Shown: one piece after another, positions 43,401 to 61,808 of the stretch
Position numbering within the stretch: position 1 is the stretch's first letter
Layout: the number at the start of each line of letters is the position of its first letter
DNA from: Fodinibius roseus
GTDB taxonomy: Bacteria; Bacteroidota; Rhodothermia; Balneolales; Balneolaceae
Reading direction: 5' to 3'
DNA: 64,000 bases
Assembly (NCBI RefSeq): GCF_900129315.1
Contig: NZ_FQUS01000003.1
Coordinates: forward strand, 62,001-126,000
The notes under the pieces: generated by a model
What the model was told of the DNA's origin: nothing
The model's database searches: none
What the model saw: the letters and a program-made list of their open reading frames with translations, nothing else
Translations under genes and position numbers: made by a program

Positions 43401-43867
43401 TTATTGGCCATACCGAACCTCGATTTCGAATAGGCCTGCGAAATGAAGTGGATTTTTGGCAAAATTTTTCTGCGTCTTTGTTTGTGCGCGCTGATCTTGG
43501 TCATATTCTTCCATTTCCTCAGGCGTTATCAGGATGGTCTACTTTTGATCGCAGAAGCACGCCCAATTATCCTTACTGGACACCTGAAAATCGCTCGAAT
43601 GAATGGCCTGTCCTATCAAAGTCAACGCAGCCGTTTGGGGGAGGGATAATGCTTTATAAGCCTGCATCTTTCGTTAGGATTCAGAACTTATCAGTTTCTT
43701 ATAATTTGCCTTCAGAACTAGCTCAGAGGATATTAATGCAAAGTGTACGAGTGTTCGGTTCTGCACGAAATTTATACAGTTTTGACAACTGGCCTGGATG
43801 GGATCCGGAATCAGCACATGATCCAATGCCAAGGACCTTTACGATTGGATTGAGTCTATCCATATAG
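40421..43867 (+). CDS. SusC/RagA-type TonB-dependent outer-membrane transporter, copy A
   Basis: An 1148-residue TonB-linked outer-membrane protein importing oligomeric nutrients with its SusD partner. After the signal region come an STN domain (about 55-130, VNFNNKPLSEILNELAQ), which talks to FecR-type anti-sigma factors, a carboxypeptidase-regulatory-like domain (GTVTDAQSGEPLPGVNISV, about 150), the RagA-type VVVGYGTQERRDLTGSV lead-in, the plug (RGPTSL to VYGARAASGVILITT) and a 22-strand barrel. The STN domain shows that this is a signal-transducing transporter even though the adjacent fecR is broken. susD follows after 53 bases. DNA here is more AT-rich than in the first 38 kb. Confidence 0.95.
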   Translation: MIISGEYENVDIRKIEAVRRALLLLFAGLIIMGQTAYAGQANLIGATALSLNKPVDEQQQLISVNFNNKPLSEILNELAQEVNAGFSYDANIIPHKSITYQGKSQSVYTVLKAVLEGTGLYITLSDNRKVVVIKEQNVQQIGRIQEEINGTVTDAQSGEPLPGVNISVEGTTTGTSTNAAGEYSLEVPGPESVLVFSFIGYKTQKITVGEQSIIDVAMEQDFGRLDEVIVVGYGTQERRDLTGSVDRIEGEDFQNQSVTNVTDMLAGTIAGFNANQGTSAAGGSSLEIRGPTSLSAGTEPMIVLDGVVYNGSIRDINPNDIETIDVLKDASSAAVYGARAASGVILITTTKGDIGKPTIEFTSKVGRTEVASRNYGPRGPQDYIDFRTDYYRTVPTDFPEYHFMNPNELPDGITLEDWRSTVGSPNSDDTVEWLNRLNFYGGEIENYQSGRTTDWFNEVMPPGLRFDNDLSIAGGTENARYYWSINQIDNEGIIQGDKFETIQTRLNLDFQVTDWLSAGINAQYANRDESVTEASLGQMLLVTPYGKIYDEEGDLEWFPGGSENAQNPLINTLGQERNRIINSAFSSIFAEFFLPYNITHKISFQPRIQTIRDYNFWSPETIIGGRSYEDGRATRLDFHEFEWMLDNLLTWEQTFGIHDVDLTLLYTVEEGKTWQTSTSNNTFRPTTNLGYSGIQFGINPSLSSQDTKVTGDGMMARLNYTLLDKYLLTASVRRDGYSAFGQENPRAIFPAVALAWNLSDESFFDVDLINQLKLRVSWGRNGNRAIGAYSSLAQLSANQFYNGSEVEMGVSTSSLANPSLAWEETESINFGMDVGMLDNRINLTLDYYDMTTTSLLVNRSLPSITGFDNVTTNLGELGNKGFEATIRTRNITSSNVNWRSSLNFSLNRNNIKSLYGQTGTYTLAGQQYEGEVPDFENEWFPGRSIHAVWDYDVLGMWQEEEVEQASEYNLRAGDIKARDLDDSGTYEALEDKRFIGHTEPRFRIGLRNEVDFWQNFSASLFVRADLGHILPFPQALSGWSTFDRRSTPNYPYWTPENRSNEWPVLSKSTQPFGGGIMLYKPASFVRIQNLSVSYNLPSELAQRILMQSVRVFGSARNLYSFDNWPGWDPESAHDPMPRTFTIGLSLSI

Positions 43868-43920
43868 TACTTGCGCCTAAATAAATTGAAAGAAATGCAA
43901 TACAATAAAATACCCTGATT

Positions 43921-45714
43921 ATGAAACGACTAATAACAAACGTGTTGATATTCTCAGTCTTGTTGATTTTTATGGGCTCATGTTCAGAGAATTTCCTCCA
44001 ACCAGAACCTAAATCATTTTTTGCACCTGAAAATGTATTTCTGGATAGATCAGGACTTGAAGCTACGCTGGTTACAATGAAGAAAAATTTGCTAAGCGAA
44101 CATGCTGGACAGAAAGATAATATATCCCATCAATTTCATGCTTCGGAAACGGGGTCTCCACTTTTACAGATGGATTATACCAACTTGACTCCCAGTACCG
44201 ATCGGTATCAGCAATTTGTGAACCAGCTAAACAATATGTTTAATTATGTAAAGGATGCAAATACCGTAATAACAAGAATTGATGATATTGAATGGGAAGA
44301 TGAACAAAGTAGAAACAAAGCTTTAGCTGAGGCCTTATGGCATCGGTCGTATTGGTATTATCGGATGGTTCACAATTATGGTGATTTGCCCTTTGTTTCT
44401 GAAGAAGTGCGTGGGGCAACTCTTGATTATAATACCCATAGCCGTTGGGCCATACTTGACCGTATTCAGGCAGATATGGAGTTCGCAATAGAATATCTTT
44501 CTGAAGCGAAAGGTCCACATAAAATAACGCTGGGAGCTGGAAATCACCTTTTGACAAAAATTTATCTTGCCAACATGGAGTGGGATTTAGCCATTGAAGC
44601 AGCAACCAGGGTTATTAATGGGCCATATTCCTTGATGACCGAGCGGTTCGGGGAAGATGCTGATGATCCAAAACGAAATTTACTATGGGATCTTCACCGC
44701 CCCTACAACAAAAATATTTCGGCAAATAACGAAACCATTCTCGCTACCGTTGACAGATTTGAAGCACCAGAGGAGGCACGAACTGCAGGTAGCTATTCCA
44801 TGCGGATATACACCGCTTCCTGGTGGCATTCTAATAATAGGGATAGTGAGGGTAATGTAGCGTTTGTACGGGGAGGAGCAATGCATGATACCTTGGGAAA
44901 TGGGAATCCTGACCATGCAGCAAGTGATTGGCATATGTATGATATCTGGGAAGAGGATGGTTACCATTGGAGTAATACCCCCGATCTGCGTCGGGCTGAT
45001 ATCAACTGGATTGATAAGCACGAGATAACAATAAACAATCCGGATTCCCCTGATTTTGGCGACCCTATGAAAGGAGAATGGATGGCAAATCCATCAGATA
45101 GCGTTTATACGCTCTTTGCATGGCCTTTCTACAAAGTTTATTCACCAGAGCAAAATCCAGCTTCGCTGCCCAATGGGGGACATGCTGACTGGTATATTTA
45201 TCGTTTGGCTGAAACGTATCTTTTAAGGGCTGAAGCATACTACTGGAAGGGTAATCTACAGGCAGCTGCTGATGATATTAATATGATAAGGGAACGTGCA
45301 AATGCTCCACTAATTTCAGCCGGTGATGTGGACATTGACTATATATTTGATGAACGGGCTCGAGAGCTGTATGCCGAAGAACCAAGGCAAAACGAATTAA
45401 ACAGAGTATCCCATATTATGGCTGCTCAAGGCATAAATGGATATAGTCCGGATAATTTACATGAAAACAACTGGTTTTACGATAGGGTTTATAATCTTAA
45501 TAATCTATATCACATCAGTCCCGCACCTGTTGTCCTTGGGGAGTCACCCAAAATTGAACCCCGCCATTTTCAGTGGCCAATAGACGATGGAATCATCAAT
45601 TCAAATGTTTTTGGTACCGTCAATCAAAATCGCGGCTACGCTGGTGCTCAAAATAATGAGCCTCCGATTGAAGAGATCCCAGAACCTGGCTATCAGACAG
45701 GACTGGCAAATTAG
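43921..45714 (+). CDS. SusD/RagB-family surface lipoprotein, copy A
   Basis: A 597-residue RagB/SusD nutrient-binding lipoprotein that caps the SusC barrel at the cell surface. The signal peptide ends in a lipobox (FMGSC, Cys near residue 21). TPR-like helices include the conserved NKALAEALWHRSYWYYRMVHNYGDLP (residues about 123-148) and LAETYLLRAEAYYWKGN, and RARELYAEEPRQNEL is the typical C-terminal signature, read here as DERARELYAEEPRQ. It is paired with susC A. The ligand is unknown; the downstream esterases suggest an acylated or esterified compound. Confidence 0.94.
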   Translation: MKRLITNVLIFSVLLIFMGSCSENFLQPEPKSFFAPENVFLDRSGLEATLVTMKKNLLSEHAGQKDNISHQFHASETGSPLLQMDYTNLTPSTDRYQQFVNQLNNMFNYVKDANTVITRIDDIEWEDEQSRNKALAEALWHRSYWYYRMVHNYGDLPFVSEEVRGATLDYNTHSRWAILDRIQADMEFAIEYLSEAKGPHKITLGAGNHLLTKIYLANMEWDLAIEAATRVINGPYSLMTERFGEDADDPKRNLLWDLHRPYNKNISANNETILATVDRFEAPEEARTAGSYSMRIYTASWWHSNNRDSEGNVAFVRGGAMHDTLGNGNPDHAASDWHMYDIWEEDGYHWSNTPDLRRADINWIDKHEITINNPDSPDFGDPMKGEWMANPSDSVYTLFAWPFYKVYSPEQNPASLPNGGHADWYIYRLAETYLLRAEAYYWKGNLQAAADDINMIRERANAPLISAGDVDIDYIFDERARELYAEEPRQNELNRVSHIMAAQGINGYSPDNLHENNWFYDRVYNLNNLYHISPAPVVLGESPKIEPRHFQWPIDDGIINSNVFGTVNQNRGYAGAQNNEPPIEEIPEPGYQTGLAN

Positions 45715-45888
45715 CCATAGATAGAGCTTTTACTCATATAGTGATGAAATCAGTTTTCGGGGATTTAAAAGTCGGTGATGACTTTGTATGAGTTATATCA
45801 GAACTAATTTTCAGTTAGACATAGGTTCTATAGACAATTTTTTTAAAAATATGACCAATAATCATAGTATGTCTTGTTGGAATGCTAA

Positions 45889-47079
45889 ATGAAATATGGA
45901 ATGAGAGAAACAACAAATAATGTCTTTGGATCAAATAAACAGGAGGTAAAGGATAACGGGATTAGTCGTAAACGGTTTTTGAGGTATGCAACTGTACTGA
46001 GTCTGTGTGCTACTGGAGTTGCCCCTGCTTGTATGCGCTACGCTACCACTGGAAATGGACAGGAGGGAACAAGGCTGGATCGTGAAAATCTTTTGATTTA
46101 TCGTGATGAAAAAGGAGAAATCCGTCCTGTTCAGGCTGTAAGCGATTGGCTTCAGCGCAAAGAGAGTATCTTGAGCGCCATGCAAACAGTGATGGGACCA
46201 TTCCCTGGAGAGAAGCAGCGTGTCCCCCTGGATCCCAGTATTAATTGGGAAGTTGATGAAGGCTCGTATATCATACGCTACATCTCTTATTCGTCTGATG
46301 CAGGGGAACGGGTTCCCGCCTACCTTCTTATACCGAAAGAGGCGCTTCATTCTGATACCCGATTTCCAGCACTTCTCAGCCCTCTCGGTACCGGTCAAAG
46401 TCAGGTAACATTTGGAGAGGATGCTATCGAGATGAAGAAGTTTCCCGTTTGGGACGACTATAGAGACTGGCCCCGGGAATTGGTTCAGCAGGGATATGTG
46501 ACGCTTGTGCCATCTTACCCCATTCTCGGGGTATATAATCCCCATCTTGATGAACTTGGTTATCAAAGTGGGACTATGAAAGCTATCTGGAATAATGTTT
46601 GTGCACTTGATCTTTTGGATCAGCTCCCGTTTGTACGCAGTGGAGAATATGGCTCAATCGGGCATTCGCTTGGTGGACACAACTCTATTTTTACTGCCGT
46701 ATTTGATGAACGGATCAAGGTTGTCGTTTCAAGTTGTGGTTTCGATTCATTTGTTGATTATATGGACGGGGATATTAGCGGCTGGTCACAAGAACGATAT
46801 ATGCCGAAAATAGAAAATTATGCGCTTGAGGAAATACCTTTTGATTTTCATGAGATGATTGCAGCATTGGCACCACGTGTTTGTTTTGTTAATGCTCCCC
46901 TTCAGGATAGTAATTTTAAATGGAAGAGCGCGGCGACTATCGTTGAATCGGCTATGCAAATTTATGAACTCTATGATGTTCCCGAACGGTTGCAGATAGC
47001 GCATCCCGACGCCGAGCATGCTTTTCCAAAGAAGGAGCGTATGCAGGCATACCAGCTTTTTGACCAGTATTTGGTTTAA
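45889..47079 (+). CDS. Exported alpha/beta hydrolase (acetyl-xylan-esterase-like)
   Basis: A 396-residue secreted hydrolase. The N-terminus has a Tat-like SRKRFLRYAT motif (Lys-Arg in place of Arg-Arg) and an h-region ending at a Cys (APAC) that could be lipidated. The nucleophile is Ser260 in GSIGHSLGGHNS, the His is His377 in HPDAEHAFP, and an acid is expected in the FDSFVDYMDGD-to-FVNAPLQDSNF region. It resembles the two other hydrolases of the region but is more distant from them than they are from each other. It probably deacylates the ligand imported by the adjacent SusCD pair. It begins 174 bases after susD. Confidence 0.88.
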   Translation: MKYGMRETTNNVFGSNKQEVKDNGISRKRFLRYATVLSLCATGVAPACMRYATTGNGQEGTRLDRENLLIYRDEKGEIRPVQAVSDWLQRKESILSAMQTVMGPFPGEKQRVPLDPSINWEVDEGSYIIRYISYSSDAGERVPAYLLIPKEALHSDTRFPALLSPLGTGQSQVTFGEDAIEMKKFPVWDDYRDWPRELVQQGYVTLVPSYPILGVYNPHLDELGYQSGTMKAIWNNVCALDLLDQLPFVRSGEYGSIGHSLGGHNSIFTAVFDERIKVVVSSCGFDSFVDYMDGDISGWSQERYMPKIENYALEEIPFDFHEMIAALAPRVCFVNAPLQDSNFKWKSAATIVESAMQIYELYDVPERLQIAHPDAEHAFPKKERMQAYQLFDQYLV

Positions 47080-47185
47080 ATCGAATAGAAGTTAAGACAG
47101 ATCTTTGCTGTGTCTACTCGTTCTTACTGTACGATCTAAATTAATCACTATGGCTGCCTCCTCATAAATCCCTAACTAACGACAT

Positions 47186-48310
47186 ATGTATCGATATCAT
47201 CGTAAAGCAATATTATTCCTGGTGCCGCTAATTGTATTTTGCATAGTCAGTTGTACAAAATCCTCTGAATCAACGGACTCTTTTCAGTTTCGTGATGCCA
47301 GCGGTGAGGAACAGCGCATCACCAATATGGCTCAGTGGGAGCAAGAACGCTGGCAAATTTTGCAGGGAATGGAAGACGTGATGGGTGAATTGCCCCCGCG
47401 AACCGGGCTGTCTTCCTTGAATATCCAGGTGTCGGATACCCTGGAAACAGACCGTTATTATAGGTTGACCATACGTTTTACCGCTGCGGAAGGGGAAATC
47501 GTACCAGCCTACATGTATCTTCCTTTTCGGAAAAGTACATCAGGAAAACACCCCGCCATGCTTGTGTTGCATGGGACAGGTGATGGCGGAAAAAGACTGG
47601 TTGATGGCGAAAGCCCACGAGCAAATCGGGCCCAGGCGAAAGAACTGGCCGAGAGAGGATATATTGTTATCGCACCTGATTACCCGAGTATGGGAGAATT
47701 ACGGGATTATGATTTTAGCAGTGATCGGTACAAGTCTGGCACCATGAAGGGGATCTTTAACCATATGCGCAGCGTTGATGTGCTGTTGGCCAGAGGGGAT
47801 GTTGATCCGGAGAGAATAGGTGTGTTGGGACACTCACTGGGGGGACACAACGCTATGTTTGCCGCTGCTTTTGACCCGCGGCTAAAGGTTGTGGTTTCAA
47901 GTTGTGGGTGGACACAAATGGATTATTATGACATTGGACAGGTCGCCCATGAAGAGTATGGAGGACGCTTGGGACCTTTTGCCCAAGATCGGTACATGCC
48001 CCTGTTCCGTGATAAATATGGACTGGATGGAGATAAGATACCCTTTGATTTTCACGAAATTATTGCGGCCCTTGCTCCCCGCCCTTTTTTCTCTAATTCC
48101 CCGGTCAATGACGGTAATTTTGACGTAGAAGGTGTTAAAAAAGGAATTAAGGCCTCGGTGGAAGTTTACCGCTTTTTAGATGCGGAAGATAACCTGCAGG
48201 TTCGCTATCCTGAGGCGGGACATGATTTTCCTACAGAGGTCAGATTGGAGGCCTATCAATTTATCGATCAGAAGCTTGACCACACCCCCAATGACCATAA
48301 TATTGAATAG
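47186..48310 (+). CDS. Alpha/beta hydrolase lipoprotein, copy A
   Basis: A 374-residue lipoprotein (lipobox FCIVSC). The N-terminal helical part (QWEQERWQILQGMEDVMGELP) leads into an alpha/beta hydrolase fold with AMLVLHGTGDGGKR (oxyanion region), nucleophile Ser217 in GVLGHSLGGHNAMF and His346 in YPEAGHDFP. It is closely similar along its whole length to the gene at 56493, its counterpart after the second SusCD pair. Family members act as acetyl or cinnamoyl-type esterases or dienelactone hydrolases; the exact bond cut is not known. It converges on the phosphatase-like gene. Confidence 0.88.
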   Translation: MYRYHRKAILFLVPLIVFCIVSCTKSSESTDSFQFRDASGEEQRITNMAQWEQERWQILQGMEDVMGELPPRTGLSSLNIQVSDTLETDRYYRLTIRFTAAEGEIVPAYMYLPFRKSTSGKHPAMLVLHGTGDGGKRLVDGESPRANRAQAKELAERGYIVIAPDYPSMGELRDYDFSSDRYKSGTMKGIFNHMRSVDVLLARGDVDPERIGVLGHSLGGHNAMFAAAFDPRLKVVVSSCGWTQMDYYDIGQVAHEEYGGRLGPFAQDRYMPLFRDKYGLDGDKIPFDFHEIIAALAPRPFFSNSPVNDGNFDVEGVKKGIKASVEVYRFLDAEDNLQVRYPEAGHDFPTEVRLEAYQFIDQKLDHTPNDHNIE

Positions 48311-48404
48311 TATCTTTATAGCTCCTTATAGATACTAATTAAGGGACATTAAATTTGACAAACTCTTGGGACCCAAAATATATTTCTTCTTCAAGCACCA
48401 AAAA

Positions 48405-49553
48405 TTATTCCTGGTGAATCGCATTGTTCAGTTCTTTTTTCATTTTATCCACAATCTGTTCGTTATGGTTGTTAAGGGAATCGATTGATTTTAGATTGTT
48501 CCAATCCATTATACGATTTAGCCCATAAAATTCTCTCTCATACAACATAACACTACTATTTAAATAAGGATGTTTCGAAGAATTCGTCAACATTTTAGCT
48601 CGTATCGTAAAGTATCTTGCAAGAATTCTATTAAACTTAAGCAAACGGGAAGAAGACGGAGAATTATTACTTTCCCCTGTAATCAAATTATATAATATTC
48701 TGCCTGTTCCGCCATCCGCATTAGGAATTTGAACATCCATCAAATGAGCAATCGTAGGTATAATATCGATTTGGTCACCCCATTCTAAAGTGGAACCTTC
48801 CTTAACATTTGGCCCATAGAATATCGTAGGAAATTGCCAACTCTCTTCAGGTAAAATTGGATGCCAACCTGTCTTTGTTTGACCATGGTCAGATGTGACC
48901 ACTAATAAGGTACCTTCCCATTTCCCTATTTTTTTCAACTCTGAAATGAACCTTCCCAGCTGTTTGTCTGCCTCTCTTACTGCATCAGTATAGGGCGATT
49001 CTTCATCCCAGATGTTATATTTATAGGGTTTATCATCATCAGCGGTATATGATTGATATCCCGCTCCACCAGCTGCTTGCAGATGCACTCGAATAAAGTC
49101 CAAGTCTTCGCCGTCTAATATTCTAATAGCCTTATCAACCGAAAATTTATCCGGACCATCTTTTTGTACAACAAATTGATACCCTTCGGTAATAGACTGG
49201 TAAGATGATGTATTAGCAACGAAAGCACTATTATCAAAACTGTGCTGGAGCATTCTTTGATTCGGTTCTAAGAAAATAGTGCCTGTCATCATCACAGGAT
49301 TAGGATACGAAGAGGTATGAACCTCTGCATATTCCCCGTGGGTTGGATGATACGGCATAATGCCGTACGTTCTTTCTATCAGGGAGCCCTGTTTTGAAAG
49401 TTTTGAAAAATTAGGCATTTCTAATTTTATAGGAGCTTCGACATGCAATCCATCGATGATAAAAAGAATAGCTCGTTCGGGATTATTTTGTGCCATGCTT
49501 ACCTGGTTTGCAAATGAAAATACAATCGCAAAGAGTACTATTATATATTTCAT
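48405..49553 (-). CDS. Exported alkaline phosphatase/phosphodiesterase-superfamily protein
   Basis: A member of the alkaline phosphatase superfamily (type I phosphodiesterase/sulfatase-like), about 382 residues. The start is placed at MKYIIVLF (49553), which gives a clean Sec signal peptide ending near SMA; the frame extends 14 residues upstream. Metal-binding positions are suggested by AILFIIDGLH (Asp), VVTSDHGQTKTGWHP (Asp, His, His) and DIIPTIAHLMD. A likely nucleophile Thr or Ser lies in HTSSYPNPVMMTGT. It could remove phosphate, phosphodiester or sulfate groups. It is the only minus-strand gene of the accessory region and separates the two SusCD sets. Confidence 0.82.
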   Translation of the reverse strand: MKYIIVLFAIVFSFANQVSMAQNNPERAILFIIDGLHVEAPIKLEMPNFSKLSKQGSLIERTYGIMPYHPTHGEYAEVHTSSYPNPVMMTGTIFLEPNQRMLQHSFDNSAFVANTSSYQSITEGYQFVVQKDGPDKFSVDKAIRILDGEDLDFIRVHLQAAGGAGYQSYTADDDKPYKYNIWDEESPYTDAVREADKQLGRFISELKKIGKWEGTLLVVTSDHGQTKTGWHPILPEESWQFPTIFYGPNVKEGSTLEWGDQIDIIPTIAHLMDVQIPNADGGTGRILYNLITGESNNSPSSSRLLKFNRILARYFTIRAKMLTNSSKHPYLNSSVMLYEREFYGLNRIMDWNNLKSIDSLNNHNEQIVDKMKKELNNAIHQE

Positions 49554-49773
49554 TTTTGCTATATAGGGTGTGTGACATTGATAGATTAGCCTCATATAAA
49601 AATTCCTGAAATTGGGAAAAGTTACATAATTATTACGTCCAGTTTACAATGTAATTAACAATTAAAAAGTCAGATATAAAATGTATTTGAATGATCAAAT
49701 TAGCAATATTTAAATCCCAGTATTCAAAGACGCTTTGGTTAGATAGTATTCGTTTTCAATATCTCCAAAAATT

Positions 49774-50957: not shown

Positions 50958-53900
50958 ATGAAAAATAGGTTTAGATATGGCAGCATGTTCGGGTTAAATA
51001 TTAGCATGGTACCAAAAGTACTTTATCTGTGTTTCAGTTTTATTCTACTGGGACAGGCAGCTACTGCAGGTCAGTTGAGTCCAATCCAGGCGACTGCTTC
51101 GCTGTTAGATAACTCAACCCATAGCAATGAGTATTTCGTTTCGGTTCACTTCGAGAATGAGCCCCTTCCAAGTGTACTTCACAAACTGGCTCAAAAAGTA
51201 AATGTCGGGATTTCATACGATACTCAGGCAGTTCCTCCAAAGTTGATCACATATCATGGTCAAAATAAGTCGATATATACCGTTCTGGAAGCTGCTCTTG
51301 AAGGGACCGGGCTACATGTTACCTTATCTGAGAATAGAAAAGTAATTGTGATTAAGGCAAAAACACTGGAGCAATTTCCATTGGTTCAAGAAGCAATAAC
51401 TGGAACGGTAACTGACGCCCAATCAGGAGAAACCCTGCCGGGAGTAAATATTATAGTAAAGGCAACAACCACAGGGACATCAACGGATGGAAATGGCACT
51501 TTTGAGCTGGAAGTCCCTTCCCTGCAGGATACCTTGGTTGTTTCTTTTATTGGATACCAAACCAGGGAAGTCCCTATTGATGGTCAAACTGAGCTTAACA
51601 TAGCCCTGGAGCAGCGGGCAATATCGGGGGAGGAACTTATAGTAGTGGGGTATGGAACACAGGAAAGGCAGGATTTTACGGGTTCAGTAAGTCGAATAGA
51701 AGCCGATGATTATAATAAACAGTCTGTTTCCCAGCTTACTGAGATGTTGTCCGGAACTATCCCCGGATTTTATTCTCAGCAATCGGCTTCCCCTGCAGGT
51801 GGAGGATCTATGGAAGTAAGGGGACCAACTTCTATAAGTGCAAATACGGATCCCATGATTGTGCTTGATGGGGTTATTTATAATGGAAGTTTGCGGGATA
51901 TTAACCCTAATGACATTGAAACAATCGATGTATTGAAAGATGCAAGTTCTGCAGCTGTGTATGGGTCAAGAGCTGCGAATGGTGTGGTGCTTGTAACTAC
52001 TAAAAAGGGATCCAAGGGTGAACCAACTATCAGTTTTTCTTCTAAAGTAGGTGTGTCCACGCCAACAAAGGATAGAAAACCCTTGGGACCTGAAGAGTAT
52101 TTGACATTTAGGGCGGATTACTTTAGGGAGACGACCAGAAATAATCCTACGATCTCAGAGCACTTTTATACTGATCCTGATAATCTTCCAAACAGCCTAA
52201 GTGTTGATGAATGGTTGGAATTAAATAGTAGTCCTAATCCCGATCCATACACCGAGTATCTTCAAAGGTTGAATCTGTATCCGACTGAACAAGAAAATGC
52301 TTTGGCTGGAAAGACTGTTGATTGGTATGATTCTGTAATGATGAATGGAATAAAGCAGAATTATGATATAAGTGTTAGTGGAGGATTGGAGAATCTAAAT
52401 TACTATTGGTCAGTCGGATATTTAAACAATGAAGGGGTGATAAAAGGAGACGAATACTCGACGTTTCGCACAAGGCTGAACCTGGAATACGAAATCAATG
52501 ACTGGTTGGTTGTAGGTACAAATACACAATATAGTAGTCGAGACGAGGGAGATACACCAGCAAGTTTAGGGTTAATGTATATTGCCAGTCCGTTTGGCGA
52601 TGTACGTAATGAAGATGGATCTCTGAAATTACGTCCTTATGGTGACCCCAGCGCCTACAATCCGTTAATGAATTATTATGGGCATAATCGCGAGAGAAAA
52701 ATAAACTCGATTTTTTCGAATCTATATACAGAAATTACCCTGCCTTTCAATATTGAATATGAATTTTCCTATCAACCCAGATTGTCTTATACCAATGAAC
52801 TAAACTTTTGGGGGGGACAAACTATAACGGGTACCCAAACTTATCCGGGAGGATACGCTACCCGCGTCAACAGTAAAGTCAGTGACTGGATGGTGGATAA
52901 CTTGTTAACGTGGGAAAAGGAGATTGGTATTCATGCTGTAAACCTGACTTTCTTATACAATGTCGAAAAAAAATCAAGCCTGTATGAAACGCAATCCAAT
53001 CAAAATTTCGCGCCAAACGCGAATCTGGGATATCACGGGTTACAATTTGGAGATAGCCCGAATTTAAATAATATAGACACGAAAGAAACGGCAGATGCCT
53101 TGATGGGTCGGGTGAATTATACTTTGCTTGATAAATATATTCTGACCGCGTCAATTCGCAGGGATGGATATTCTGCCTTTGGACAGGATCAGCCGCGGGC
53201 TGTATTTCCGGCCTTGGCGGGGGCATGGAGGATATCAGATGAGGAGTTTTATAATACAGATTGGCTCGTCAACAGACTAAAATTAAGGGTATCCTGGGGT
53301 ATAAACGGCAACCGATCAATTGGAGCCTATTCCGCTTTGGCTTCGTTAAGCTCTACGCTCGATTATGATGGATCTAATGTTAAGGTTGGAGTTGAGAATT
53401 CCTCTTTAGCAAATGAAAGTTTAGCCTGGGAACAAACTACTGCTCTTAATTTTGGAGCTGATATTGGTATGTTAAATGACCGGTTAGGTATTAGTGCCGA
53501 TTATTATATAGGTACTACCAAGGATGTATTAATGAATCGACGGTTACCTATTATTACAGGTTTTTCAAATATTACGGCCAATCTGGGTGAATTGAAAAAC
53601 AGTGGATTGGATGTCAGTATAACAAGTAACAACATTATAAAGCCAGCGTTTTCCTGGAGTACCGACCTGGCATTTTCCTTCAATCGGAATGAAATTGTAT
53701 CTTTGTATGGGGATTTCGGTGAATATACTTTGTTGGGGGAACAGAGAAGGGGAGAGCTGCCGGACTTTTCAAACAATTGGTTTCCCGGTCACGCTATAGA
53801 TGCCGTATGGAATTATGATATTACAGGTGTTTGGCAGACGGGAGAGGCTGAACAGGCTGCAGAATACAATATGTTGCCAGGAGACTACAAGGCTGAGGAT

Positions 53901-54413
53901 GTAAATAATGACGGCAGTTATGTAGATGTAGAAGACAAACAGTTTATCGGGTACACTAAGCCTCGATTCCACGTAGGATTAAGAAATAATTTTAATATGG
54001 GACCGTTCAGTGCCAATATATTTATCAGGGGTGACATAGGTCATCTTATCCCGTTTAATGAGGCCTTAAGAGGCACTTTGTCCCATGACAGGCGGAATTA
54101 TGACATGGGCCCCCTTCCCTATTGGACAGCGGAGAATAGGAACAATGAATACGCCCGTTTAAGACCCAAACATACTGCATATGGGGGCGGATTAAACTTT
54201 TATGAGCCGGGGACCTTTGTTCGAGTCCAGGATGTAACACTAAATTATTCTTTTCCTCACTCCCTATTAGAAAAGTTTGATATAAATACAATGAGTATAT
54301 ATTTATCGTCACGTAATTTGCTGACATTTGATGATTTTGCGGGATGGGATCCGGAATCAAGAATGACCCCTATGCCAAAAACCTTTACCGTCGGCATTGA
54401 TTTGTCATTATAA
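50958..54413 (+). CDS. SusC/RagA-type TonB-dependent outer-membrane transporter, copy B
   Basis: An 1151-residue paralogue of the transporter at 40421, with the same order: signal region, STN domain (VHFENEPLPSVLHKLAQ), carboxypeptidase-regulatory-like domain (GTVTDAQSGETLPGVNIIV), IVVGYGTQERQDFTGSV, plug (GPTSISANTDPM to AANGVVLVTT) and barrel. Matching blocks such as DINPNDIETIDVLKDASSAA are identical in both, but loops differ widely, so the ligands may differ. It follows the intact fecR by 100 bases, the arrangement expected for a sigma/FecR/SusC signalling set. susD B starts 33 bases downstream. Confidence 0.95.
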   Translation: MKNRFRYGSMFGLNISMVPKVLYLCFSFILLGQAATAGQLSPIQATASLLDNSTHSNEYFVSVHFENEPLPSVLHKLAQKVNVGISYDTQAVPPKLITYHGQNKSIYTVLEAALEGTGLHVTLSENRKVIVIKAKTLEQFPLVQEAITGTVTDAQSGETLPGVNIIVKATTTGTSTDGNGTFELEVPSLQDTLVVSFIGYQTREVPIDGQTELNIALEQRAISGEELIVVGYGTQERQDFTGSVSRIEADDYNKQSVSQLTEMLSGTIPGFYSQQSASPAGGGSMEVRGPTSISANTDPMIVLDGVIYNGSLRDINPNDIETIDVLKDASSAAVYGSRAANGVVLVTTKKGSKGEPTISFSSKVGVSTPTKDRKPLGPEEYLTFRADYFRETTRNNPTISEHFYTDPDNLPNSLSVDEWLELNSSPNPDPYTEYLQRLNLYPTEQENALAGKTVDWYDSVMMNGIKQNYDISVSGGLENLNYYWSVGYLNNEGVIKGDEYSTFRTRLNLEYEINDWLVVGTNTQYSSRDEGDTPASLGLMYIASPFGDVRNEDGSLKLRPYGDPSAYNPLMNYYGHNRERKINSIFSNLYTEITLPFNIEYEFSYQPRLSYTNELNFWGGQTITGTQTYPGGYATRVNSKVSDWMVDNLLTWEKEIGIHAVNLTFLYNVEKKSSLYETQSNQNFAPNANLGYHGLQFGDSPNLNNIDTKETADALMGRVNYTLLDKYILTASIRRDGYSAFGQDQPRAVFPALAGAWRISDEEFYNTDWLVNRLKLRVSWGINGNRSIGAYSALASLSSTLDYDGSNVKVGVENSSLANESLAWEQTTALNFGADIGMLNDRLGISADYYIGTTKDVLMNRRLPIITGFSNITANLGELKNSGLDVSITSNNIIKPAFSWSTDLAFSFNRNEIVSLYGDFGEYTLLGEQRRGELPDFSNNWFPGHAIDAVWNYDITGVWQTGEAEQAAEYNMLPGDYKAEDVNNDGSYVDVEDKQFIGYTKPRFHVGLRNNFNMGPFSANIFIRGDIGHLIPFNEALRGTLSHDRRNYDMGPLPYWTAENRNNEYARLRPKHTAYGGGLNFYEPGTFVRVQDVTLNYSFPHSLLEKFDINTMSIYLSSRNLLTFDDFAGWDPESRMTPMPKTFTVGIDLSL

Positions 54414-54445: not shown

Positions 54446-56230
54446 ATGAAGATTATGAATATAAATATAAAAGTCTGGCTGATAGGCGGGTTAATATTTT
54501 CAGCTTCATTGTTGAACTCGTGTACCGATAACTGGCTTGCACCTGACCCTCTCTCGACGTTCACACCCGAAAATGTATATGTAGATGAAGAGGGATTTGA
54601 ATCTCTGTTGATAACGATGAGAAAAAATATCAAGGATGAACATTATGGTTTTTTTAGCTGGTCAACAGCTGAATATGTGTCATCTGATTTGGCGGTAGGG
54701 GGGTACGGACCTGATTTCTCATTTCTCACACCTACAGGTACTCCAGAGCGATACCCGGTGGATGATATGTTTGGTGATATCTACGAGTATTTGAAGGATC
54801 CGAATGTATTAATCTCTCGCATTGATGAGGTTGAATGGCAAGATCAATCAATACGTAATCGACTTCTTGCAGAAGCTTTTTGGCACCGTGCCTATTTATA
54901 CTATCGATTAATCCATTCCTATGGAGATGTGCCCTGGATTGGTGAAGAATTAAAAGGGGCCAAGCTTGATTTTACAACTCATACCAGATGGGCGATTTTA
55001 GATAAAATTCAAAGAGATTTGGAATGGGCTGTAGAATGGATGCCTGAGTCCGCTCCTCCCAGAGTACCTACAAAATATGCCGGTTGGCATCTGTTAGCAA
55101 AGATTTACTTGGCTAATACAGAGTTTGATAAAGCAATTGAAGCTGCTACAAATGTAATTAATGGTCCTTTCGCACTGATGACCAATAGGTTTGGAAGTTG
55201 GTCAGACGATCCTGCCCGTAATGTGATTTGGGATCTTTTCAGGCACGAAAATATTTATAACGGCCAAAATACAGAGACTATATTGGGTTTGGTAGATAGA
55301 GCAGAAGCCCCGGAAGAAGCGCGGAGATACCGATCTATGGCCGCAAACTTTAATCCTCATTGGTGGGATGTAAAGGATGTAGATGGCCAGAGAGGCATTG
55401 AATACCCATCAGCACTCATGGATACCGTTATGAGAGGACAAGGTATTACGGTATCGAACAAGTATTTTCAATATAAAATATGGGGAGATGAAAATAGTTC
55501 CTGGGAAACGACTACGGATCTTAGGAGATCGGATATAAACTGGATTGAAATGAGAGAAATTCGATATAATGTAGCTGATTCCCCTAACTTTGGCGAGCGT
55601 ATCGAACAGCGGTGGTCGACTCCAAGTGACACTACATTGAGATGGTTTCCCTGGCCTCATTATAAAACATATAATCCCACAAGTCAGGAAGAAAGCACTT
55701 GGGGAGGAGGTAATGGTGATTGGTATCTGTTTCGTCTTGCTGAAACTTATTTAATAAGAGCCGAAGCATATTACTGGAATGAGCAATTAGCTCAAGCCGC
55801 TGCTGATATTAATGAGGTTAGGTTACGTGCAAATGCTTCCTCCATTACTGGTGCTGATGTAACAATAGACTATATATTTGATGAGCGAGCACGTGAGTTA
55901 TACATGGAGGAACCTCGCCATACGGAGATGGTGAGGGTTTCAAATATAATGGCCAGGTTAAATATAAATGGCTATGACTTGGACAATATTGGCCAACAAA
56001 GCTGGTGGTATGACCGAGTAATGAGAGTTAATGATCTGTACAATCAACCTCCCGGCACTTGGTGGAGTAGTCAATCTGTTACTATTGAACCATATAATAT
56101 TTACTGGCCGATACCACAAAATATAATTACAGCAAATACCCAGGGTACAATCAATCAAAACTATGGTTACGAAGGGTATCAAAATAACAGTACACCACTG
56201 GACACAATTGAAGATACGATTGAAAAATAA
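54446..56230 (+). CDS. SusD/RagB-family surface lipoprotein, copy B
   Basis: A 594-residue SusD-like lipoprotein (lipobox LLNSC) with the same landmarks as copy A: NRLLAEAFWHRAYLYYRLIHSYGD, read over residues about 133-156, LAETYLIRAEAYYWNEQ and DERARELYMEEPRHTEM. Ligand-contact loops (about residues 230-420) differ strongly from copy A. It is the partner of susC B. The following gene, after 262 bases of AT-rich DNA without a visible gene, is a paralogue of the hydrolase in set A. Confidence 0.94.
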   Translation: MKIMNINIKVWLIGGLIFSASLLNSCTDNWLAPDPLSTFTPENVYVDEEGFESLLITMRKNIKDEHYGFFSWSTAEYVSSDLAVGGYGPDFSFLTPTGTPERYPVDDMFGDIYEYLKDPNVLISRIDEVEWQDQSIRNRLLAEAFWHRAYLYYRLIHSYGDVPWIGEELKGAKLDFTTHTRWAILDKIQRDLEWAVEWMPESAPPRVPTKYAGWHLLAKIYLANTEFDKAIEAATNVINGPFALMTNRFGSWSDDPARNVIWDLFRHENIYNGQNTETILGLVDRAEAPEEARRYRSMAANFNPHWWDVKDVDGQRGIEYPSALMDTVMRGQGITVSNKYFQYKIWGDENSSWETTTDLRRSDINWIEMREIRYNVADSPNFGERIEQRWSTPSDTTLRWFPWPHYKTYNPTSQEESTWGGGNGDWYLFRLAETYLIRAEAYYWNEQLAQAAADINEVRLRANASSITGADVTIDYIFDERARELYMEEPRHTEMVRVSNIMARLNINGYDLDNIGQQSWWYDRVMRVNDLYNQPPGTWWSSQSVTIEPYNIYWPIPQNIITANTQGTINQNYGYEGYQNNSTPLDTIEDTIEK

Positions 56231-56492: not shown

Positions 56493-57668
56493 ATGACAAA
56501 AAAATGGTTTATAAAATCATTGGGTTTAGAAATAATGGGAATGTCACTTGACAAGAAATCTGGATTTCTTTTTTTCTTTGTTATCTGCTTATTAAATATC
56601 TCATTAAGTAAAGTGCAGGCCCAGTCTGATGAGCATCCTTTTACTATTGAGCGTTCTGCCGACAATAGTATAAAACGCATTTCATCAATAGCCGAATGGG
56701 AGAGGCAGAGATGGAGTATCATCAAGGGAATGGAAGAGGTGATGGGTGAATTACCGCAACGAATTGATTTACCCCCATTAAATATGCAGGTTTCTGATAC
56801 GTTGAGAACAGATAACTATAGCCGCCTTACGATCAGTTTTACGGTTGCAAAAGAGGAAAAGGTACCTGCTTATTTATATATACCTCATCGTAGCGGCGTC
56901 ACTGGAAAATTGCCTGCAATGCTTGCCCTTCATCCGACAGGAGAAATAGGAAAAGATATTGTCGATGGACAAGGGCTTGCCAACAGAGGATACGCAAAGG
57001 AATTGGCAGAACGGGGATATATTGTGATTGCACCGGATTACCCCGGTTTTGGAGCGTTGGAAGAGTACAAATTTGACAGGGACCGGTACAAGTCGGGAAC
57101 GATGAAAGGAATTTTTAATCATATGCGTAGTGTGGATTTGCTCCAAAAAAGAGAAGATGTCAATCCTCATAAAATTGGGGTTATAGGACACTCGCTGGGG
57201 GGACACAATGCCATGTTTGTCGCCGCTTTTGATACGCGCTTAAAAGTCGTAGTTTCCAGCAGCGGATGGACCCAACTCGGATACTATGATACGGGTAAGG
57301 CTGCGCATGATAAATATGGGGGACGACTGGGACCCTGGGCACAAGATGTATATATGCCCCTTTTACGGGACAGATATAATCTGGATGATAATATCATACC
57401 TTTTGATTTTCATGAAATTATCGCGGTAATAGCTCCAAGATTCTTTTTTTCGAACTCTCCCGTTAAGGATAACAACTTCGAAGTTAATGGAGTACGAAAA
57501 GGAATTTCAAAATCACGAAAAGTCTATAAATTTTTAAATGCCGATGAAAATCTCCAGGTGCGGTATCCTGAGTCCGGACATGATTTCCCAACAAAAGTAC
57601 GCCGTGAAGCGTATCAGTTTATAGATAAGGTCTTTGATCATACTCCTTTCGAGCATGAGATTGAATGA
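56493..57668 (+). CDS. Exported alpha/beta hydrolase, copy B
   Basis: A 391-residue hydrolase with a signal peptide (cleavage near KVQAQ). It matches the protein at 47186 throughout: EWERQRWSIIKGMEEVMGELP, the hydrolase core with Ser234 in GVIGHSLGGHNAMF, and His363 in YPESGHDFP. Copy B lacks the lipobox, so it is probably soluble in the periplasm or secreted, while copy A is anchored. The pairing of one such hydrolase with each SusCD set argues that a fecR-susC-susD-hydrolase cassette was duplicated. Confidence 0.88.
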   Translation: MTKKWFIKSLGLEIMGMSLDKKSGFLFFFVICLLNISLSKVQAQSDEHPFTIERSADNSIKRISSIAEWERQRWSIIKGMEEVMGELPQRIDLPPLNMQVSDTLRTDNYSRLTISFTVAKEEKVPAYLYIPHRSGVTGKLPAMLALHPTGEIGKDIVDGQGLANRGYAKELAERGYIVIAPDYPGFGALEEYKFDRDRYKSGTMKGIFNHMRSVDLLQKREDVNPHKIGVIGHSLGGHNAMFVAAFDTRLKVVVSSSGWTQLGYYDTGKAAHDKYGGRLGPWAQDVYMPLLRDRYNLDDNIIPFDFHEIIAVIAPRFFFSNSPVKDNNFEVNGVRKGISKSRKVYKFLNADENLQVRYPESGHDFPTKVRREAYQFIDKVFDHTPFEHEIE

Positions 57669-57755: not shown

Positions 57756-59162
57756 ATGAAAGATAACTTTGATATAACGACGTATAGGCACGTGTTTATA
57801 ATCTTTTTGACCTGTTTGTTTTGGGGATCAACAAATCTACTCATAGCCCAGCAACGTACGATGGAGGATCAGGAAAGCAGCAGCCTGGAGGTAGGCTTTG
57901 CAAGTAGTAAAATCACGCCGGACCCAATGGTTAACAACTGGGTGACCGGCAAGCCGTACGGGAAGGTACGGGACTCGATTTACACCCGTGCTCTGGTGTT
58001 GCGTGCCGGGGATCAGAAAGTCGTACTGCTCCACTGGGAGCTGGTGGATGCCGGTGAGTCGGCCACCGAGCAGGTACGCTCGGCCGTAGCGGACGCCCTG
58101 GAGATTCCGTCGGATCATATTATGGTGAATGCCTCCCACAACCACTCGGCCCCGTGGGCGCCGGTCTACGACAATGCACACCGGGGCCTGGAGCGGGACA
58201 CCTGGTGGGCGGTCCGGTACATGCCACCCCAGCACGAGGAGCCTCCTTTTAAAGCATGGATGGATCGGTTGATCAGCCAAAGCGTGGCCGCGGCCGCCGC
58301 CGCCGACCGGGCCCGAGAGCCAGCCACAGCGTGGGTAGGGCGCGCGGATGTCTCCCGGTACCTGCAAAATCGCCGCCCGCGTCCCGTTCGGGAAGGAATA
58401 GCGGAATCTCATATGCCTGACAATTATAATTACCGTCACCCGGAGTGGGACCCCAACGTACTGAGCGGGAACCGGACCTTTGGTCCGCTGGACCGGGCGA
58501 TGACGCTGGTCTCGTTTCGATCGCCCGCCGGGAATATGATCGGCACGCTGTTTCACTTGTCATGTCATGCCGTATCCGTGTATCCCTACACAGACGCCCT
58601 TTCCGGGGATTGGCCCGGGGCGGCCACCCGGGCCATAAGCGAACAGCTGGGTGGGCCGAGCATGTTTTTACAGGGAACGGCCGGGGATATTAATCCCTGG
58701 CGCCGCGGGGCGGAGGCTGTGCAGATTATGGCAAAAGGGCTGGCCGGATATGCCGGGCGGGCATACCGGTACAGCGCGCAGCTGCAACCCGGAAAACTAC
58801 ATATCGACCGGACGCACGTGGGACTGCCACTGACCGACTACGGGCGCGAGCGCACGGGGCTGCAGACCCTGCCGGCCGAAATACAGGCTGTCAGGTACGG
58901 TTCGCTGGCGATTGTGACGCTTCCCGGGGAACCGATGACGGGACTGGGGATGGCTATTAAGGAGCGCTCCCCATTCCCGCAGACCCTGGTGCTGGGGTAT
59001 TCCAATGGCAATGGGGTGCATTATGTGGGCATGCCGGGAGAAAAGGCCCGTGGAGGATACGAAGTGGGAGAGAAGACGAATCTGGGCACCGACCGGGCCG
59101 GATTGATCATGGTGGAGGCGGCCGAAGACTTGCTGCACAAGATGTACGGTGAGACGGAGTAG
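57756..59162 (+). CDS. Neutral/alkaline ceramidase-like exported hydrolase
   Basis: A 468-residue protein with a signal peptide (cleavage near LIAQ) and the neutral/alkaline non-lysosomal ceramidase N-terminal fold: VGFASSKITPDP at the start, RALVLRAGDQKVVLLHWEL, the zinc-ligand NASHNHSAPWAP, TLFHLSCHAVSVYPY and FLQGTAGDINPW. Genuine ceramidases cut the amide of ceramide; bacterial relatives in sugar-use loci are largely untested and may act on other amides or esters. From about 57850 the DNA becomes clearly more G+C-rich than the SusCD genes before it. It lies 87 bases after the hydrolase and 54 before the dehydrogenase-like gene. Confidence 0.85.
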   Translation: MKDNFDITTYRHVFIIFLTCLFWGSTNLLIAQQRTMEDQESSSLEVGFASSKITPDPMVNNWVTGKPYGKVRDSIYTRALVLRAGDQKVVLLHWELVDAGESATEQVRSAVADALEIPSDHIMVNASHNHSAPWAPVYDNAHRGLERDTWWAVRYMPPQHEEPPFKAWMDRLISQSVAAAAAADRAREPATAWVGRADVSRYLQNRRPRPVREGIAESHMPDNYNYRHPEWDPNVLSGNRTFGPLDRAMTLVSFRSPAGNMIGTLFHLSCHAVSVYPYTDALSGDWPGAATRAISEQLGGPSMFLQGTAGDINPWRRGAEAVQIMAKGLAGYAGRAYRYSAQLQPGKLHIDRTHVGLPLTDYGRERTGLQTLPAEIQAVRYGSLAIVTLPGEPMTGLGMAIKERSPFPQTLVLGYSNGNGVHYVGMPGEKARGGYEVGEKTNLGTDRAGLIMVEAAEDLLHKMYGETE

Positions 59163-59216: not shown

Positions 59217-61403
59217 ATGAGACAGTATATAATAGTCGGAATAAGTATTTGTATCGCAGGACTTTTGATTTCATGCGGGCAGCAGCGGTATCCGGATTCG
59301 TTGACGCCCGGGCAAGCCATTCAGTCGTTTGAGCTGGATGAGCGGTTTGCTATAGAAGTATTTGCCTCAGAACCCCATGTGTTGGACCCTGTGGAGATGG
59401 TATTTGATGCGGGCGGTAATGCCTACGTGATAGAAATGGCAGACTATCCGTTCAAATCCGATACGCTCGATGACAGTCAAGTTGTCGGGAGCATCAGTCA
59501 GTATCCCATCAACTCGGAGATCGCTGAAGCGGGGGGACGCATTCGGCTGCTGGTGGATTCGGATAATGACGGGCAGATAGATGAGTCCACCATATTTGCC
59601 GATAGCATATCAGAGGGGACCAGTATTTTGCCATGGAAAGAGGGATTGTTGGTAACAAGTGCTCCCCATATCCTTTACTATAAGGATACCACCGGAGACG
59701 GTCGCGCCGACACCAGGGAGGTGCTTTTTACGGGATTTTCCAAAGATAATATGCAGTCTCAAATTACAAGCCTGCGATTTGGCGTGGATAACTGGATCTA
59801 TGCCTCCAATGACGGCCGTCCCGGGGAAGTCCGGTTTAACCGGCGTCCGGAGGCCGCTCCGCTGCCGGTGCAGGGAGCTGATTTTCGTTTTCGGCTGGAC
59901 CGCGGCGAGTTTGAAACGGCCACCGGGGCCGGTCGGGTTGGACGCACATTCAATGACTGGGGACATCGGTTTATGAGCGCTGCTGTCCCGCACATAAGAT
60001 ATGCGGTCATCCCCCGGAGATATTTGAAGCGCCACGAGCACCTTGCCTCTCCTGTTGCCATTGACAATATCAATGATCACGGGCTGCGTATGTTCCAGCT
60101 GACCCAGGCGCCCTACTGGCGGGTTGAACGAACCAAGCGCCGCCAGCAGCGCTACGATGAGGCGGGCCTGGACAGGACGGAATATGCCGAGGACCACTTT
60201 ACCGGTGCCACGGGGGGAACCTATTACGGCGCCCACGCGTTCCCGGAGGAGTTCTACGGGAACGTTTTTACGGGCGAGTCGGCCGGGAACCTGGTCCACC
60301 GGGATATACTGAGACTGGACGAAGACAGCGTTACGTATACTGCAAGCCGCAGCGAGGAGGAGACTGACCGGGAATTTTTGGCCTCTGGGGATCCGTGGTT
60401 TCGTCCGGTAACGCTTACCGTGGGCCCGGATGGCTACCTGTATGTTATCGACATGTACCGCCAGCATATTGAGCATCCGGTCGCCATCGATGAAGATCTG
60501 AAAACGGATATTGATTTTTCCCGGGGACGAGAACAGGGGCGTATTTACCGTATTGTTCCGAAAGGTGAGGATACAGAGAAAAGAATATCCGCAAACCTGA
60601 AGGAGATGGATAATGGAGAACTGGCAGAGCATCTTGCTCACGGGAATCAATGGTGGCGTCTTACCGCCCAAAGACTGTTAGTGGAGCGACAGGATCGGTC
60701 GGTTGTTCCCGTGCTGGAAGAAATGCTCACCCAGAACAAAGATCCGAGGGCCCGGCTGCATGCCCTCTATACGCTGGAGGGACTGGGGGCCCTGAACGAG
60801 GGGCTGGTCCGCCAGGCGATGGAGGATGACCACCCCCGCCTAAGGGAACACGGCATGATACTATCGGAACAGTATCCCGGGCTTATCCCGCAGTTGATCG
60901 GAGCCATTCATGATACCTCCGCAAGGGTGGCCCTGCAAGCGAGCCTGAGTTTGGGACAATTTGAAGATCCGCGGGTTCCCTCCGCACTGGCCGAAACGGT
61001 AGAGCGGCATGGCCGGGATGCCTGGTTTCGGACGGCGGTGTTAAGCTCCGGGCCGGGTTCTTCGGTGGAGCTGATGGACAAGCTGTTCAGTCGAGAATCA
61101 TTCTATGAACAAATAGATCCATGGGAAAAAACGTTTTTAAAAAACCTCTGCTTTGCAATCGGTTCGCGTAATGCGGAAAGGGAGGTCATAGCCATGTTAG
61201 ATCTTTTATCTCAATTAGATACAAGTAACCGGCAAACCTGGCAAGTGATCAGCCTGAGCGGATTGTCTGAGGGTCTGGAAAAGCACGAAGATACCCATTC
61301 TGATTTGGCAGAAACATTGCAGGGAATAACAGAGTCTGACTCAGAGGCTGAAATAACAAAGAGAATAGACCGGATAAGAACGTATTATTCCGGCTCATTA
61401 TAA
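59217..61403 (+). CDS. Sorbosone/PVC-type dehydrogenase-like lipoprotein lacking heme
   Basis: A 728-residue lipoprotein (lipobox LLISC, Cys20). Residues about 35-440 form a beta-propeller of the PVC-type membrane-bound dehydrogenase family related to PQQ-dependent glucose/sorbosone dehydrogenases (FAIEVFASEPHVLDPVEM, GRIRLLVDSDNDG, NWIYASNDGRPGE, VTLTVGPDGYLYVIDMYR). Residues about 450-700 are HEAT-like helices. Many relatives end in a cytochrome c domain with CxxCH; this one has only two cysteines in all (Cys20 and one near 644), so it has no heme site. A separate electron acceptor is needed, and the HiPIP gene follows 33 bases later. Confidence 0.85.
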   Translation: MRQYIIVGISICIAGLLISCGQQRYPDSLTPGQAIQSFELDERFAIEVFASEPHVLDPVEMVFDAGGNAYVIEMADYPFKSDTLDDSQVVGSISQYPINSEIAEAGGRIRLLVDSDNDGQIDESTIFADSISEGTSILPWKEGLLVTSAPHILYYKDTTGDGRADTREVLFTGFSKDNMQSQITSLRFGVDNWIYASNDGRPGEVRFNRRPEAAPLPVQGADFRFRLDRGEFETATGAGRVGRTFNDWGHRFMSAAVPHIRYAVIPRRYLKRHEHLASPVAIDNINDHGLRMFQLTQAPYWRVERTKRRQQRYDEAGLDRTEYAEDHFTGATGGTYYGAHAFPEEFYGNVFTGESAGNLVHRDILRLDEDSVTYTASRSEEETDREFLASGDPWFRPVTLTVGPDGYLYVIDMYRQHIEHPVAIDEDLKTDIDFSRGREQGRIYRIVPKGEDTEKRISANLKEMDNGELAEHLAHGNQWWRLTAQRLLVERQDRSVVPVLEEMLTQNKDPRARLHALYTLEGLGALNEGLVRQAMEDDHPRLREHGMILSEQYPGLIPQLIGAIHDTSARVALQASLSLGQFEDPRVPSALAETVERHGRDAWFRTAVLSSGPGSSVELMDKLFSRESFYEQIDPWEKTFLKNLCFAIGSRNAEREVIAMLDLLSQLDTSNRQTWQVISLSGLSEGLEKHEDTHSDLAETLQGITESDSEAEITKRIDRIRTYYSGSL

Positions 61404-61436
61404 CGATCATTCAAATACTCGTGTAATTCAGCAATC

Positions 61437-61808
61437 ATGAAGAACGACGACTATTCGCGGCGAACGTTTATCCGTAAATTTTTTCAGCTCGGTTCCGCCT
61501 GCCTTGGTTTTGGCATGGTGGCGGGGGGATGCCAGTCGGAAGACTCCGATCGCAAGGATGAAGGAGATTCCGGGAATAGTTCCGGCAGAGAAGACTGCGA
61601 GGATTTATCGGGGATAAACCAGGAGGAAATTCAGAAGCGTGAGGTGTATGGTTATGTGAAGGAATCCTCCTATCCGAACATGTCCTGCAGCAACTGCAGC
61701 CTCTATCTGGAACCGGAATCGGGTAATAAATGCGGAGGATGCGTGTTATTCGACGGCCCCGTTTTTGCAGAGGGCTATTGCGATTATTGGGAACCAAACG
61801 AATCTTGA
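61437..61808 (+). CDS. High-potential iron-sulfur protein with Tat signal and lipobox
   Basis: A 123-residue HiPIP, a periplasmic one-electron carrier with a 4Fe-4S cluster. The cluster ligands are Cys84 and Cys87 (MSCSNCSLY), Cys102 (KCGGCVLFDG) and Cys115 (EGYCDYW), the classic C-x2-C-x14-C-x12-C spacing. The N-terminus has a twin-arginine motif (SRRTFIRKF), suited to export of a folded cluster protein, and the h-region ends in VAGGC (Cys32), a lipobox, so the mature protein may be membrane-anchored through an acidic linker. It directly follows the hemeless dehydrogenase-like gene, its probable electron donor. Confidence 0.92.
   Translation: MKNDDYSRRTFIRKFFQLGSACLGFGMVAGGCQSEDSDRKDEGDSGNSSGREDCEDLSGINQEEIQKREVYGYVKESSYPNMSCSNCSLYLEPESGNKCGGCVLFDGPVFAEGYCDYWEPNES

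Follow-up and report, generated by a model that had tools for sequence, protein, structure and literature searches.

Two adjacent genes in Fodinibius roseus encode a heme-less beta-propeller protein and a high-potential iron-sulfur protein (HiPIP). Both lie in the window, by which we mean the whole stretch of 64,000 nucleotides analysed here (contig NZ_FQUS01000003.1, positions 62,001 to 126,000). An earlier note on this DNA proposed that the two products form a periplasmic electron relay, in which HiPIP replaces the cytochrome c commonly carried by relatives of the propeller protein. The pair consists of the following features, given in window positions.

59217 to 61403, forward strand: gene of a propeller and HEAT-repeat lipoprotein, heme-less and PVC-type (TIGR02604/DUF7133), 728 amino acids, open reading frame from ATG to TAA
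59217 to 59276, forward strand: signal peptide of the propeller protein, ending at the lipobox cysteine C20 (LISC), predicted from the motif
59310 to 60566, forward strand: beta-propeller domain, residues 32-450 (PF23500 match to residues 31-449; AA12-like fold)
60108 to 60188, forward strand: Arg-rich insertion APYWRVERTKRRQQRYDEAGLDRTEYA of the propeller protein, residues 298-324
60402 to 60404, forward strand: R396 of the propeller protein, aligned with the PQQ-binding (pyrroloquinoline quinone-binding) Arg621 of CcPDH
60621 to 61403, forward strand: HEAT-repeat C-terminal half of the propeller protein (HEAT_2 match; helices in the model)
61404 to 61436, forward strand: spacer of 33 bases between the two genes
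61437 to 61808, forward strand: gene of the HiPIP precursor, 123 amino acids, ATG to TGA (PF01355 match; sequence and fold matches to 3h31)
61437 to 61532, forward strand: twin-arginine (Tat) signal (SRRTFIRKF) and lipobox-like cysteine C32 of HiPIP
61686 to 61781, forward strand: [4Fe-4S] ligands C84, C87, C102 and C115 of HiPIP, invariant in 50 relatives and placed as in 3h31

The propeller protein scores 231 bits against TIGR02604, 'PVC-type heme-binding CxxCH protein' (cut-off 122.2), and 379.6 bits against PF23500, DUF7133 (cut-off 27), and it also has a HEAT_2 match. Its AlphaFold2 model reaches a pLDDT of 89.6. The only cysteines are C12, C20 and C645. Hence the protein contains neither CxxCH nor CxxC and has no heme c site; the earlier note had likewise read no CxxCH. 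CxxCH is also absent from all 80 homologues described below.

In a tree of propeller domains the heme-less type forms a single clade (SH-aLRT 99) nested within the heme-fused family. Its sister group consists of heme-fused proteins of the window genome and of Segetibacter. Most simply read, this tree places the loss (or replacement) of the heme domain in the ancestor of the heme-less clade. The Arg-rich insertion makes this region about 18 residues longer than in the heme-fused sister clade, which lacks it. It follows the motif PYWRxERTxRR..., is basic in nearly all homologues, and its W301, R302, R305 and R309 are invariant in 65 of them. Compared with the PVC-type proteins of TIGR02604/PF23500, the window protein shares the propeller and HEAT architecture, the membership score and the position in the tree, but it has no C-terminal cytochrome c and no CxxCH, it is accompanied by a separate HiPIP gene and it carries its own Arg-rich insertion. 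The description that suits it best, judged by sequence, is that of a TIGR02604/DUF7133 branch without heme and with a linked HiPIP.

The product of the second gene is a genuine HiPIP. Its PF01355 match barely exceeds the cut-off (22.9 bits against 22). Among solved structures, the HiPIP 3h31 of Rhodothermus marinus is its nearest relative by sequence (E 5.6e-19) and also the best PDB match of the predicted fold, with a Foldseek E of 2.4e-8 and a TM of 0.86 on the target. The earlier note's observation that a HiPIP gene begins 33 bases after the propeller gene is thus confirmed by both family and structure. The four cluster ligands are spaced C-x2-C-x14-C-x12-C. A Tat motif RRx[FL] occurs in the window HiPIP and in 48 of its 50 relatives; among these relatives R9 is invariant, and R8 and C32 are conserved in at least 90%. 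From the twin-arginine motif we predict export by Tat. The window HiPIP has the same fold and the same cysteine spacing as the R. marinus protein, a shuttle between alternative complex III (ACIII) and caa3 oxidase, including an extra cysteine pair. In contrast to that protein, it adjoins a propeller gene and falls on a separate branch of the HiPIP tree.

How widely is the pair conserved? A search of 84,980 species genomes with the propeller protein yielded 80 loci in Bacteroidota and Balneolota, 41-61% identical in the best segment. These loci were chosen by similarity to the window protein and include many close relatives; hence they are not independent. In 68 of the 80 the next gene downstream, on the same strand, encodes a HiPIP; the median gap is 26 bases, and some pairs overlap by 4 bases. 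A 69th locus (L040) departs from direct pairing solely through a frameshift in the propeller gene. This gene of Kriegella sp. EG-1 is split into two frames, by assembly error or decay. Within about 8 kb of the propeller gene HiPIP is found in 74 loci: a NagA-like gene separates the two in three loci (L082, L083 and L096), HiPIP is convergent to the propeller gene in L088, and it lies about 6 kb upstream in L078.

The pair stays constant while SusCD, Gfo/Idh, aminotransferase, NagA/NagB and other neighbours vary among loci. Because the rest of the neighbourhood varies so widely, synteny of the whole operon is too little to explain the pairing. The pairing also goes beyond chance, because the window genome contains a single PF01355 match, the HiPIP beside the propeller gene, and yet HiPIP is the next gene downstream in those 68 loci. 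Thus the gene pairing is conserved across two phyla, Bacteroidota and Balneolota. The earlier note had looked to Balneolota and relatives for such adjacency. It is conserved there; it is not particular to Balneolota, and most cases come from Bacteroidota proper.

The same association appears within the family of the window organism. Among 92 genomes of this family, HiPIP occurs in three (the window genome G000, G001 and G213). The heme-less propeller protein occurs in exactly those three, and the two genes are adjacent in each. There are C(92,3)=125,580 ways of choosing three of 92 genomes, though the genomes are related. The three belong to two genera. The window's genus contributes eleven further genomes; both genes are present in G001, and the remaining ten lack both. 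Both the homologue loci and this co-occurrence bear out the adjacency.

We also searched from the HiPIP side, in a phylum-wide sample and one further order. Outside the window's class, the pair is present in three of five HiPIP-bearing genomes (G204, G288 and G334) and absent from two (G338 and G342). In G334 (L186/L188) HiPIP and apparently also the propeller gene next to it look frameshifted, by assembly error or decay. The stand-alone HiPIP of G342 (L185) is flanked by two CxxCH-motif proteins, perhaps another HiPIP-cytochrome system. For the remaining HiPIPs from the window's order and class (about 40 genomes), we examined flanks of 1.5 kb and found no propeller gene there. Among the stand-alone HiPIPs of the window's class, none of which lies beside a propeller gene, is L162, a HiPIP matching a stretch of 3h31.

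In the HiPIP tree one branch separates the linked from the stand-alone HiPIPs; its support of 80, from 70 columns, is not decisive. The distances among propeller proteins correlate with those among their HiPIP partners, with r 0.70 over 47 pairs against 0.23 in the best of 2000 permutations, a correlation to which shared species history contributes. In Parapedobacter tibetensis two copies of the pair have diverged in parallel (64% and 62%).

These patterns bear on the idea that the HiPIP is an ordinary respiratory shuttle, from ACIII to caa3 as in Rhodothermus, that lies within a nutrient locus by chance. Its closest solved relative is indeed the respiratory R. marinus HiPIP, and ACIII and caa3 are both present. 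However, the ACIII/caa3 genes are located elsewhere in the genome and their locus has no HiPIP, HiPIP is absent from 89 of the 92 family genomes, and in the tree the window HiPIP clusters with those linked to a propeller gene, away from the stand-alone ones of its own class. We consider an ordinary shuttle very improbable.

Constant adjacency would also be expected if the HiPIP were a subunit with a structural or maturation role in the propeller enzyme, for example in its export or stability, and not mainly an electron carrier. Small Tat-exported partners do occur in other sugar dehydrogenases. The propeller protein, however, has its own Sec-type lipoprotein signal, and the four cluster ligands and the HiPIP fold are strictly conserved. 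Hence we give this explanation hardly any weight.

The relatives of the propeller protein within the window genome reveal which carriers the family uses. There are 16 other family members, plus three short GSDH-type proteins that are not counted among them. Thirteen of the 16 have a fused cytochrome c motif, in line with the statement of the earlier note about such relatives, and three have a plastocyanin-like cupredoxin domain; these domains come in addition to the HEAT-repeat half. The window protein is the sole family member of its genome without a fused carrier, and the only PF01355 protein of the genome is encoded next to it.

The cupredoxin-bearing DUF7133 proteins are L147:4191-7199 and L146:5942-8002, both on the reverse strand, and L148:3445-6357 on the forward strand. 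Two have the cupredoxin at the C-terminus and one at the N-terminus, and one also contains ThuA. Cupredoxin in place of cytochrome c is another carrier swap in the DUF7133 family. The window protein likewise belongs to this family and has a non-heme carrier. Their carrier is a fused blue-copper domain, whereas that of the window protein is a separate HiPIP.

To explain these observations, we propose that the products of the two genes form a dedicated redox pair in the periplasm (or at the surface), in which a HiPIP took over from heme and which would relay electrons from a nutrient to respiration. We assign this reading, drawn from sequence comparison, a probability of roughly 65%. We infer the oxidoreductase activity of the pair, the direction of its electrons, its cofactor, its substrate and its terminal oxidase. 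We also infer that HiPIP is the immediate electron acceptor, as the earlier note had suggested, rather than a donor.

The relay would have arisen from a family of propeller dehydrogenases in which a fused cytochrome c carried the electrons away. One clade would have lost this heme domain and acquired a HiPIP gene immediately behind the propeller gene. The propeller protein would be exported as a lipoprotein and oxidise a sugar-like compound imported by the SusCD locus. HiPIP would fold with its [4Fe-4S] cluster inside the cell, leave by Tat and be tethered nearby. There it would take single electrons from the propeller enzyme and pass them to the respiratory chain, probably to a heme-copper oxidase.

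The window genome encodes ACIII and caa3, ba3-like and cbb3-type oxidases, as assigned by gene order and heme motifs. One of these oxidases could lie on the onward path of the electrons. HiPIP is a known partner of ACIII in R. marinus, where the complex reduces it (PMC5928083). This precedent, together with the ACIII of the window genome, also favours a flow in the reverse direction: ACIII (or another quinol oxidase) would reduce HiPIP, and the propeller protein would use the electrons for a reductive or oxygen-activating step on the nutrient. Electron direction is not readable from sequence. Yet the nearest folds are oxidising dehydrogenases, and the modules fused to the paralogues, cytochrome c or cupredoxin, are those to which periplasmic dehydrogenases usually deliver their electrons. 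We regard reverse flow as unlikely.

The nearest PDB folds of the propeller model are the fungal AA12 PQQ dehydrogenases 6jt5 (Foldseek E 2.6e-7) and 6i1q (E 1.1e-6), and also 6h7t. BtuG-type B12-binding propellers are a weaker match (E 2e-4). The PQQ pyranose dehydrogenase CcPDH, which also works with a cytochrome domain, has as PQQ and catalytic residues His363, Arg430/Asn431, His539, His560, Trp563/Asn564 and Arg621 (PMC6881789). The propeller fold is common to the window protein, to CcPDH and to bacterial sGDH/Asd. The principle of a dehydrogenase with an electron-transfer domain is shared with CcPDH, the activity of the window pair being predicted. In contrast to CcPDH and sGDH, the window protein lacks the catalytic His, the Arg/Asn dyad and most PQQ ligands and has an extra HEAT domain. 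The partner of CcPDH is a cytochrome b; here it is HiPIP.

Several results weigh against the proposed redox pair. Missing cofactor residues are the weakest point of the dehydrogenase reading: R396, opposite Arg621, is the sole counterpart of a CcPDH ligand, and the alignment of the propeller protein offers none for His363, Arg430/Asn431, His539, His560 or Trp563/Asn564. The window genome gave no match for pqqC, in a search without a positive control; uptake of external PQQ is possible. For the DUF7133 propeller we found neither a solved structure related by sequence profile nor a characterised activity. No natural fusion of propeller and HiPIP was found in about 490 genomes searched by open-frame length, where the open frames of HiPIP matches reach at most 308 amino acids. 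Finally, six of the 80 homologues have no nearby HiPIP. Three of these six genomes have a second, HiPIP-linked propeller copy (L043/L075, L046/L060 and L048/L052); for the other three no second linked copy is known.

The missing residues do not set the heme-less branch apart. In the heme-less clade the catalytic His and the Arg/Asn dyad are substituted; an invariant Q182 lies nearby, and there is a GxGQF motif (GAGRV in the window protein). The heme-fused sister proteins have similar substitutions (SQFG/SQYG), and more distant heme-fused members (proteins C28 and C52) keep the RN dyad. Because the closest cytochrome-c-fused relatives equally lack the PQQ ligands, their absence is no proof of a mere binding protein. 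Since the heme-fused sisters share the substitutions, this sub-branch, with or without heme, may bind its cofactor differently or use another one. We rejected PQQ as a residue-level certainty because most ligands are absent, and do not file the propeller protein as a PQQ enzyme. The earlier note had tied its oxidoreductase reading to cofactor-binding residues. On that score the results point both ways: by fold the closest solved structures are PQQ dehydrogenases, yet most of the published PQQ and catalytic residues are gone.

Alternatively, the propeller protein could be a non-catalytic, BtuG-like ligand-binding lipoprotein. HiPIP would then serve an unlinked enzyme or general respiration, and the adjacency would reflect only co-regulation. 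The BtuG-type propellers among the fold matches and the mostly absent PQQ ligands fit this explanation. In contrast, redox domains are fused to members of the parent family (cytochrome c in 13 and cupredoxin in 3 proteins of the window genome), and the same ligands are missing from the nearest heme-fused relatives. No gene other than that of the propeller is linked to HiPIP with such constancy; the linked HiPIPs make up a branch of their own, and they co-vary with their propeller partners. A purely binding role therefore seems improbable to us.

What might the redox pair oxidise? In several Cytophagales loci it occurs with NagA, NagB, a NagP/FucP-like transporter, a DegT aminotransferase and a Gfo/Idh protein resembling glycoside 3-dehydrogenase. 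By sequence these neighbours point to amino sugars or glycosides as the substrate. One cluster (L047:2530-16850, similar in Runella, Spirosoma, Arsenicibacter and Dyadobacter luticola) is possibly an undescribed amino-sugar pathway. Clusters of this type contain Gfo/Idh, a DegT aminotransferase, a ceramidase-like protein, a protein of 420 amino acids with no Pfam match, propeller and HiPIP, another Gfo/Idh, a NagP/FucP-like transporter, NagA and NagB. The family of L047:6419-7678 (about 430 amino acids, no Pfam or NCBIfam match) recurs beside the pair and has homologues in 14 loci.

A more far-reaching proposal, which we find doubtful, is that the clade-wide swap from heme to HiPIP created a new type of extracytoplasmic dehydrogenase in Bacteroidota. 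Its active site, and perhaps its cofactor, would differ from those of known PQQ propellers. The Arg-rich insertion would dock HiPIP, and the enzyme would oxidise amino-sugar or glycoside nutrients before their uptake. Charge complementarity is not supported as a general docking rule: linked HiPIPs are less acidic than stand-alone ones (mean net charge -0.8 against -4.7).

In the window, the pair follows the genes of a SusCD nutrient locus.

50958 to 54413, forward strand: SusC-type TonB-dependent receptor (by sequence; SusC cluster)
54446 to 56230, forward strand: SusD-type lipoprotein (PF07980/PF14322)
56493 to 57668, forward strand: alpha/beta-hydrolase, glucuronyl-esterase-like (Pfam match)
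57756 to 59162, forward strand: Ceramidase_alk-like protein, of a similarity cluster found in 49 of 82 loci examined

These four genes and an amidohydrolase gene are the neighbours of the pair. None encodes a cytochrome, which agrees with the earlier note. A scan of the region around the pair found no terminator-like site between the two genes. Promoter-like sites there are near the shuffled level (12 against 8.5 +/- 2.9 in shuffles), and an Rfam search of the window returned no RNA. A second SusCD-like locus lies upstream (40421-49595), with a SusC-sized open reading frame (40421-43867), a SusD (43921-45714), two glucuronyl-esterase-like hydrolases and a sulfatase on the opposite strand.

HiPIPs are mainly known from photosynthetic and respiratory chains, where they act as shuttles. 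In the open-access literature we found no account of a HiPIP as partner of a propeller dehydrogenase, and no useful paper on the PVC-type heme-binding family or on the neighbouring glycoside 3-dehydrogenase family. The probable route from propeller to HiPIP has not been described in that literature.

If our proposal is true, soil and marine Bacteroidota would use HiPIP as a dedicated partner for an enzyme that oxidises a nutrient. The pair occurs in cultured genera (Dyadobacter, Runella, Spirosoma, Arenibacter and Chitinophaga). Cytochrome c, cupredoxin and HiPIP would then be three different carriers wired to a single dehydrogenase scaffold. With HiPIP, the large and uncharacterised DUF7133/PVC family gains a concrete, small and soluble partner with which its function can be assayed.

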